Shown: in pieces, positions 3,370 through 44,500 of the stretch
Layout: the number at the start of each line of letters is the position of its first letter
Numbering within the stretch: the first letter of the stretch is position 1
Assembly: GCF_000003815.2 (NCBI RefSeq)
Contig: NC_049983.1
Location: forward strand, 8,847,470-8,911,469
Direction: 5' to 3'
Length of the DNA stretch: 64,000 nt
DNA from: Branchiostoma floridae
Lineage: Eukaryota > Chordata > Leptocardii > Amphioxiformes > Branchiostomatidae
Program-made: the position numbers and the translations under genes
Notes under the pieces: generated by a model
Seen by the model: only the letters and a program-made list of their open reading frames with translations
What the model was told of the DNA's origin: nothing
The model's database searches: none

Positions 3370-6300
3370 ATGGCCGCCGGTCTGTGCCGTGTTTCCCTGC
3401 TCCGACTTTCAAGAACGTTTTCTCCCGGAGCAAACGTAAGTTGGCCGAAAATCTCCTCTTATCAGATCAACACACTGATTTACTCCTGTTTCAATTTGTG
3501 TTAAAGATGATAGGTCTGTTCTAAAGCTGTAAATTTGAACGTAAACTTCGGTCATTCCGACTTGCCGGTTGTGACACCGACTGACCTTGCACATGTCCCA
3601 AACCGACAAATTTGAACCAATTCCAGCCGATACGCTGTACCCTACCCAATATTCTATATCAAAAGGTGCTACAAATGACATTTGAGGCAAGATTTGAGGA
3701 ATTTCTGGGCGTATTTTATTGTAAGGAGCCCGTACGTGCGCGTAATTGGTATCGCCCCCCTCCCATACAATTTGCCCCCCTCCCCACAGCTTTACCAGTG
3801 TGTGGTTTCATGTGTATGTAAGTGATATTTTTGCAAATATACAGTGAAAGAATCATCATACAACTGTGTGTACAACCGAATTTCTAGATATGCTACTGTT
3901 ACTGGATTTGTTGTACTGGATTTTTTAATGCTTTGTATGTAGTAAATTGTACAACAGGTACATGATTTTTGAAATCATGCTTACAAATAAAGTTTAGGAT
4001 GAAAACTTGAAGAAATGTGTAGGCAATAAGTTTCATTTGTATATCACATTTGATAATTTGTCACACCACATACATACCACATGCATAAAAAATCTAATCC
4101 CCCTCGGTTTGCGCAGTAGACTTCTCCGTGTAAGTTAAGGCTGCAGAATCCTCAACACGATGAGGGCAGCAGCCCAACCGAAAGAAGAAAATTCGCTACG
4201 GCTGCGTGGCGCGTTGGTACACCCGATCCCTCGATCTTGGAAGTTAAGCAACACGCGGTCTGGACAGTACTTGGATGGGGGACCAACCAAGGACGTCCGG
4301 ATTGCTGTAGCCTCATGAAGCTTTCCACGAAGTTGTCTTCCAGGAGGGACGTAAAACAGGGGTCCTGTGCACGTTAAAGAGCCTCATTACCCACACTTTG
4401 GGTACCTACTGGCTGCAAAATACACCCGATATTATATCTAAATCCTGTTGCTTTTACTAGTTTTAGTTCAGATACGAGTTAGAAATTGATAGAAAACTAA
4501 CAAGCTCTTTTCCGCAATTTCCCAGCCTGCTCTGAGCATCCAGACATGGCGTTGTGCGTCCACACGCGCCTCGTACGGTCAGACCCTCCTCAACGTGCCG
4601 GAGACTAAGGTGACCACGCTGGACAATGGCTTCAGGGTGGCCAGCGAGGACTCTGGCCTGCCCACCTGCACGGTCGGGCTGTGGATCGACGCAGGCAGCA
4701 GGTACGAGAACCAGCGCAACAACGGAACGGCTCACTTCCTGGAGCACATGGCGTTCAAGGTGGGTCATGTTGATGGTGTACTAGTAGTTTTGCATATTTG
4801 GGGAGTATATATTTTACTCAACGGAGGTATACTAGTTGTCATAGGGCATTGTTAAAATGGGCAAATTCTCGTGATGAACACATTAGAATTATAGGAGACT
4901 GTATAATTGTATACTTGGTCTAGAATGGAACTAGACTGTCACAAAGGTTACTACATGTATACTATAGTATAGGACAATAGTAACGTAATGGAGGTAGGAA
5001 TTCAAGACATAAACACTAAATGATAACAGAAAACAAAATTGTTACTAAGAGATATTTTGAGAAAGTAAAATAATGAAACACAGGGTTCTCCCCAGAGAGT
5101 GGAATAAGGGAGGCCCTCCACTATACTCTCAGCCAGCTCCACTATACTATTTTTCAAATTTAGTGTGTTTCTTCCCTATTTCCTTTGTTAGTTTTGCTAA
5201 GATTAATGACAATTCACAGATTTTTGTACCAAGTGGTATCACTTTTCCAGTCAGCATTGTCTGCAAAAACTTGTGAATGAGCAATGATCAAAACAATAGT
5301 AGTTTTGCCACTTCACAACAAAGGAATAACAACAGTATATTATACTTGTAGTATTTGACACCCTCTGTCATTGCAAAATGAACCCATTTTCATGAAAGTG
5401 CAGCGCGTTGGTGCGGGTTATTTTTGCCAGCCCCTCCACTATACTAAAAAATTCTGGGGAGAACCCTGTTTAACATGATTTTCATATGTGAAGCTCAACA
5501 TACACATTTGCAATATTGTGGACTAAAAACTCTCAATGTCATCACAAAAAGATGTTTCATGTCATCCGAAAATAGCAAGAAATGTGAATTTATGTCAGTC
5601 TGGTGACACCAATGTATTTTTTTTTTTAGGGTACCAAGAACCGATCCCAGATGGACCTAGAACTGGAAGTAGAGAACATGGGAGCCCACCTGAACGCCTA
5701 CACCTCCCGGGAACAGACTGTCTACTACGCCAAGAGCTTCTCTAGTGACCTGGGAAAAGGTAACTGAGGACTTCTCTTGAAGTCTTATTTAACACAACAT
5801 AAATTGGTTTCTAGTAATTAGAAAATATGCTCACAACAAACTAAGGCTGTATCCATTAATGACTTACATTTGTACTTAAAAGAAACCGTCTGTACTTGGT
5901 CATCATGAGTTGATGTTGAACATTTTGATGTTGTTCTTTATAGATACAGTTGCAGCTATGTCATGAGACTCATGATTCATAATTATCCATACGTATCTTA
6001 ATTGGCATCGTTTTTAATTTCGGAATTTAGCATCTAAAGTTTGAAGGACCTTCATAATAGTGACCTTCTTAGTCAAAAGTTAAAGTCCTTCCTGTACCAA
6101 ATGTGCATCGGGCGGCACCCATCTCCATTTCCGTAGCCCTAAGCCGCACATTTCTAAGCTAACTGTACTATAGCGATGGGCTGGTCCACTACTAGTTATG
6201 TGTGTTAAACTCCCATACTCTTCCTCATGAAAGTTAAATTGTAAAGGTGTGTCTTAATATGTTGAATGTAATGTCTACATTGCTTAGATTTGTAAATGTT

Positions 6301-44500: not shown

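Follow-up and report, generated by a model that had tools for sequence, protein, structure and literature searches.

Why should tandem arrays in two neighbouring genes lie, again and again, on the borders between exons and introns? The question is raised by a stretch of 64 000 nucleotides of Branchiostoma floridae DNA at C5:8847470-8911469 (hereafter the window), which carries the neighbouring genes PMPCB and UBA3, both on the + strand. An earlier note on this DNA had described three such arrays in PMPCB and two in UBA3, and had taken splice junctions to be their seeds.

Junction arrays in PMPCB and UBA3

The exon borders of both genes were set from homology, the reading frame and the GT/AG rule, except that the end of one UBA3 exon, 28866, has no assigned GT. 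Joined without exon 2, the PMPCB protein matches cytochrome bc1 core protein 1 at 1.8e-135 and MPP-beta at 4.8e-112 and weaker; exon 2 encodes HFLEH, which we take to be the zinc motif of active MPP-beta. The UBA3 protein matches ubiquitin-activating enzyme E1C, the NEDD8 E1 catalytic subunit, at 1e-110. The repeats, and the PMPCB exons concerned, are the following.

8031-8449, + strand: PMPCB array 1, spanning a donor (TRF: 83 bp, 5.0 copies, 98%)
7997-8112, + strand: PMPCB exon 6; its tail forms the first unit of array 1, and its own donor, 8112/8113, keeps the frame
10731-10982, + strand: PMPCB array 2, spanning donor 10760/10761 (TRF: 85 bp, 2.9 copies, 91%)
12259-12906, + strand: PMPCB array 3, spanning an acceptor (TRF: 83 bp, 7.8 copies, 92%)
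12862-13036, + strand: PMPCB exon 11, the coding copy beside array 3
31031-31665, + strand: UBA3-1, a decayed array made of an exon tail with donor 31083/31084 and three intronic copies
42427-42620, + strand: UBA3-2, a weak intronic repeat of about 26 bp that abuts donor 42426/42427 (TRF: 42444-42506, 75%)

All three PMPCB arrays that had been placed on splice borders are found by TRF, with 8112/8113, 10760/10761 and 12861/12862 inside them. The left edge of array 1 lies inside exon 6, at TAAGTACTTTGG, and its right edge in the donor GTAAG; donors recur after 8112, 8195, 8278, 8361 and 8444, and the footprint exceeds five periods by 4 nt, TAAG, an exon-internal TAAG being joined to the donor GTAAG. 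The unit edges of array 2 are off the splice site, about 30 nt into the exon and about 55 nt into the intron. Array 3 has eight acceptors in units of 80-93 bp, and the last of them, 12861/12862, opens the true exon. Its inner units are nearly identical and the border unit, the last one, beside the exon, is divergent, which is the pattern of homogenisation expected of the duplications known as mirages. CTAACA, which resembles the branch point consensus, is found at all seven of its joints (7/7), its branch-like A lying 21-34 nt upstream of the AG that follows (24 nt in the case of the acceptor that is used). The upstream intron, with TTAACA, and the exon, with CTAACA, may share a 5-nt word, but tentatively so, since the unit is missing some exon bases. 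One unit of 83-85 bp placed at random on PMPCB has a probability of about 0.16 of spanning a junction, and to find three junction arrays in a single gene is unusual (P=0.015 given the sample-wide rate, for a window that was not randomly picked). When the genome was searched with array 1, its own locus stood alone among the matches listed.

Other repeats were noticed in the window. A 185-bp x2.9 array at 2795-3335 stops 34 bp short of the PMPCB start codon and probably sits in the promoter or 5′ leader. On the - strand, a 26-bp x21.7 array (16970-17551) lies inside a predicted open frame of 193 aa, and a 39-bp x4 array (19179-19487) inside one of 102 aa.

In UBA3, the array that had been reported at 31036-31690 is real: its three copies of the exon tail, at 31246-31305, 31460-31535 and 31595-31665, score 40, 46 and 26.5, against a best score of 14.5 among 300 random intron stretches. 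It is also a decayed example, of the sort that the earlier note had claimed to be present, and too decayed for TRF, which reports only a GATG microsatellite. The GT is kept in two of the three copies (donor scores 4.0 and 4.1, compared to 6.9 for the real donor), and the third copy has lost it (score -0.7). The GATG microsatellite, at 31113-31199 of the window, separates the exon from the first intronic copy, and its growth may have lengthened the unit. The second UBA3 repeat was likewise presented as a junction array. It does adjoin a donor, but it is weak and gave no match in the junction-centred test described below (score 11 for a threshold of 18); it starts after the donor, and its sole tie to the splice site is GTAAGT, which is present in any donor. 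We therefore rejected it as a junction array. The other four of the five arrays consist of tandem units that span an exon-intron boundary, as mirages do. That the arrays are independent, as the earlier note held, is borne out by their units, which differ in sequence, edge, age and the type of splice site involved; a single event behind all of them was rejected for this reason.

Frequency in a genome sample

A Pfam profile search of the genome listed exon matches for myosin (at least 142), adaptin (at least 35), kinesin (at least 134), Cpn60_TCP1 (at least 60) and SNF2 (at least 67), and 29 ten-kb stretches were taken, mostly from kinesin and chaperonin genes and none from myosin. One of them, L023, had been chosen because it already looked duplicated and is excluded from all rates, which leaves 28 stretches; L015, where a repeated profile match was known before selection, was kept in the counts, but is not a blind choice. 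Of 98 exons established by homology, the exon finder picked up 91 at threshold 14 and 82 at threshold 18; with the latter, 29 of 34 borders were true in PMPCB and UBA3. From 488 predicted junction points, nine were taken out individually (copies within arrays at L015 and L003, an exon at L026 that lacked verification, and a misplaced donor at L017) and three because they fell inside the L017 array at 7424-8006, which gives 476; one donor, which is a match, was added by hand to the curated set (L017, after 1155). The testable curated junctions number 459, the remainder having failed rules on length, N or complexity. In the junction-centred test, a 50-bp segment was laid on each point and a second copy within 700 bp had to span its centre. 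The background consisted of noncoding grid points, each array being weighted by its copy number, and its near-exon part of points 60-400 bp from exons. In a reversed-flank control, none of the 483 predicted junctions and none of the 1458 noncoding points reached a score of 18, and of the 241 exon middles one did.

A local duplicate spans 10 of the 459 curated junctions (2.2%; 95% interval 1.0-4.0%), and mirages are present in eight of the 28 stretches, at least one in each. This suggests, from a small sample, that mirages are common in the genome, in agreement with the frequency that the earlier note had anticipated. The raw noncoding rate is above that of the junctions, a local second copy being found at 346 of 8738 grid points (4.0%), so duplication is widespread; after copy-weighting, the background is 1.26% of noncoding grid points and 0.98% near exons. 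The junctions thus stand at a ratio of 1.72 to noncoding sequence (P=0.07; locus-bootstrap 95% interval 0.78-2.87) and of 2.23 to near-exon intron (P=0.016; 1.16-3.71), to which a persistence bias may add, if the selected copy keeps a pair recognisable for longer than pairs within introns. With homology-confirmed exons alone, 4 of 182 junctions are matched (P=0.20 against noncoding, 0.09 against near-exon intron), and at stricter similarity (score 35 of 50) five junctions give ratios of 2.1 to 2.4 (P 0.09 and 0.06). Exon middles, with array copies left in, are matched no less often than junctions (6/241, 2.5%). Donors were matched in 8 of 229 cases and acceptors in 2 of 230 (Fisher P=0.06); the donors taken against the 1.26% background give P=0.009, in a split made post hoc. 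In PMPCB and UBA3 together, 4 of 50 junctions are matched, compared to 1.9% copy-weighted (6.5% raw) in their own introns (P=0.015, for a window that was chosen because of its arrays).

The earlier note had also proposed to ask whether arrays overlap splice sites more often than shuffled positions do. Among 36 TRF arrays in the sample stretches, seven overlap predicted junctions. Random placement of one unit predicts 3.8 or 2.9 (exon thresholds 14 or 18; P=0.07 or 0.02), and placement of the whole footprint 10.4 or 8.1 (P=0.95 or 0.75), i.e. the overlap is no more than chance. Since several of these seven overlaps came from exons called within arrays, we turned to the junction-centred test. 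On these figures the role of splice junctions as seeds is not established: any preference for them over ordinary intron DNA is weak, no more than mild, and unproven.

Other affected genes

Arrays at junctions outside the window, read in the sequence, include the following.

L015 4089-4503: kinesin P-loop exon, acceptor, 151 bp x2.7
L031 7884-9023: BRG1-like gene (identity by homology), donor, 40 bp x about 30, exon tail with donor GTAAA
L028 3622-4031: CCT zeta, acceptor, 68 bp x6
L017 1120-1748: KIF2-like gene, donor, 45 bp x14
L023 (G000:C14:1913500-1923499, - strand): CHD4-like locus, five junction arrays in 7 kb, at 102-433, 4778-5010, 5466-5732, 5846-6215 and 6395-7063, borders set by eye

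Displaced single copies were found at junctions in L003, L019 and L028 (7570). The CHD4-like locus, whose exons were identified at 7e-65, 2e-11 and 4e-8, has three donor-side and two acceptor-side arrays, and in one of them the ATPase motif GTDTILADEMGLGKT is seen in most copies. The 45-bp unit of the KIF2-like gene is a multiple of three and its first copies are open in frame, so that read-through would add repeats to the protein. In an adaptin gene (L030 1040-1132), the unit of a 46-bp x2 array reaches the acceptor CAGGT and stops some two bases inside the exon; this array abuts the acceptor and is uncounted under the spanning rule. At G000:C7:20251213-20252052, two SNF2-family matches (profile 211-250 and 211-248) lie about 0.7 kb apart, possibly another duplicated exon. 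As for gene identities, the exons of L005 and L019 match the kinesin motor family, and we assume that those in L003, L005 and L019 belong to KIFC and KIF5. The L004 exon, presumably KIF19-like, gave no convincing relative in the relative search and no family in the family search.

Which copy codes

If the first donor or the last acceptor of each array is used, PMPCB residues 22-356 align to chain 65-399 without a gap across all three arrays, and the UBA3 alignment crosses UBA3-1 with its only gap elsewhere. The CHD4-like exons, joined at the exon-proximal copies, align over 1-116 on 726-841 (E 7e-65), with equal length across one intron that holds two arrays. For the KIF2-like gene, joining at the first donor of the 14-copy array gives 1-139 on 21-157 (E 2.6e-49), off by two residues across the array. 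In the CHD4-like gene, moreover, the exon-proximal donor copy reads DEAHRLKNNQSK with DEAH, and the inner copies DAVY or DEAY (exon identity 4e-8); DEAH kept in the exon-proximal copy only is what is expected if only the first copy is under selection. Homology thus supports the prediction that splicing uses the exon-proximal copy, which keeps the reading frame, and leaves the other copies in the intron. The PMPCB and UBA3 arrays lie inside introns between aligned exons; we looked for a new intron flanked by duplicated exon and found none in these two genes, whose proteins align without an insert at the arrays. No new intron position was seen in either.

Origin of the arrays

We consider it probable that the arrays are amphioxus mirages which owe their existence to a high general rate of tandem duplication, combined with survival of those copies that splicing hides. 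On this reading, pieces of tens to about 200 bp are duplicated locally in tandem, and the general rate at which this happens is high, as the sample shows. If such a piece includes a splice site, the exon would still be defined by the junction nearest to it, i.e. the first of several donors or the last of several acceptors, and the further copies would become intron, a step supported by homology, not RNA. The insertion would then be nearly neutral, and so retained; slippage or unequal exchange may afterwards raise the number of copies and make them alike, before they decay, as those of UBA3 have done. Duplication of a donor would be hidden from the message since the first donor remains; for that of an acceptor to be hidden, the last unit must contain a branch point too. 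A donor should need about six intronic bases and an acceptor a branch point and pyrimidine tract in each unit, which is probably why donor-side arrays outnumber acceptor-side ones; the CTAAC in every joint of PMPCB array 3 is as the acceptor requirement would demand. Such a survival filter would explain both the survival of arrays and the donor bias without any special seed.

Pure neutrality, however, does not predict the near-exon excess or the donor excess, and the clustering of arrays, three in PMPCB and five in the CHD4-like gene, suggests local hot spots. Since the filter leaves this mild excess and the clustering in few genes unexplained, the idea that the donor consensus, or transcription or splicing there, promotes tandem duplication, e.g. 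through microhomology with exon-internal TAAG-like words, survives, although we think it unlikely. It would account for the link between TAAG and GTAAG in array 1 and for units that, judged by eye, end about 4-9 nt past the donor in PMPCB array 1 and in the KIF2-like and BRG1-like arrays. But the comparison with all noncoding sequence has a bootstrap interval that includes 1, acceptors show no excess, exon middles are matched as often as junctions, and arrays 2 and 3, UBA3-1 and the kinesin array of L015 have unit edges off AG/GT. The earlier note had suggested that AG/GT at both ends of introns supplies microhomology; this holds for array 1, with its 4 nt, and was rejected as a general cause, since the overlap at the joint is 3 nt or less in 18 of 21 high-identity array rows (five of the 21 come from L031). 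The remaining two rows are a GT-rich simple repeat and a partial copy.

An assembly artefact, i.e. repeats collapsed or expanded in the assembly and absent from the animal, is very improbable. There is a precedent, the mirage BflGb6 being described in the accessible part of PMC3087553 as misassembled in the draft; against it, private substitutions and indels separate the copies, decayed copies are impossible as assembly errors, similar arrays recur across the sample, and the sole N run of the window (1200-1435) is at none of the arrays. We give equally little credence to the possibility that the arrays are retained for a function, as spare splice sites or as a route to new introns or exons. 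The inner donors of arrays 1 and 2 are intact, most of the decayed UBA3-1 copies still have their GT, and introns have been proposed to arise by tandem duplication (PMC4974935 and PMC3087553, as far as their accessible text goes). Yet one UBA3-1 copy has lost its GT, homogenisation explains the intact donors of young arrays, and no new intron position was seen. General duplication followed by survival within introns thus remains our preferred explanation.

Relation to known mirages

The accessible text of PMC3087553, on globins, describes minisatellite-like duplications of intron-exon boundaries, names them mirages and proposes them as an intron source; it cites Adh3 (Canestro and others 2002), retinol dehydrogenase and presenilin as mirage genes, and suggests from Adh3 data and globin RT-PCR that mirages leave splicing undisturbed. 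That of PMC3902484 reports two arrays in PGBD5 and cites troponin C. The amphioxus Adh report which the earlier note mentioned does exist, being cited in both. A huntingtin paper (PMC2206037, likewise in part) mentions assembly errors and several tandem repeats in the huntingtin gene.

The arrays studied here resemble the mirages of Adh3, BflGb6, BflGb9 and PGBD5, as these appear in the accessible text, in having tandem units of tens to about 160 bp across donor or acceptor borders and many copies with AG/GT signals, and PGBD5 already has two arrays in one gene. They differ in the genes affected (PMPCB, UBA3, kinesins, CCT zeta, BRG1-like, CHD4-like), in reaching five arrays per gene, in including a decayed example and in coming with a rate and its background. 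The potato RdRp case (PMC4974935, in its accessible part) shares tandem duplication of splice signals, with GTAAG involved, whereas in amphioxus the old intron only lengthens and no new intron position was detected. Minisatellites of the ordinary intronic kind likewise duplicate locally in tandem and are amplified, at a similar rate; the mirage unit differs from theirs in being partly coding, with one copy under selection. The kind is therefore already known; what is new, as far as our literature search shows, is its presence in PMPCB, UBA3 and a heavily affected CHD4-like gene, and the rate with its background, no genome-wide count of mirages having been found in the open-licence literature.

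Significance

The earlier observation of junction arrays is largely correct and its interpretation partly supported. What had been a handful of amphioxus curiosities becomes a measurable class, which matters for gene annotation, given the spare exons and donors, and for models of intron gain by duplication. A caution is that, with arrays so numerous, some of them should fall on splice sites even if no special mechanism places them there. By extrapolation, duplication of about 2.2% of junctions would mean thousands genome-wide. It is a doubtful but consequential thought that amphioxus donors are true mutational hot spots, thousands of them copied into arrays and genes such as the CHD4-like one and PMPCB repeatedly rebuilt; if this were so, they would keep providing material from which new introns and exons could be made.
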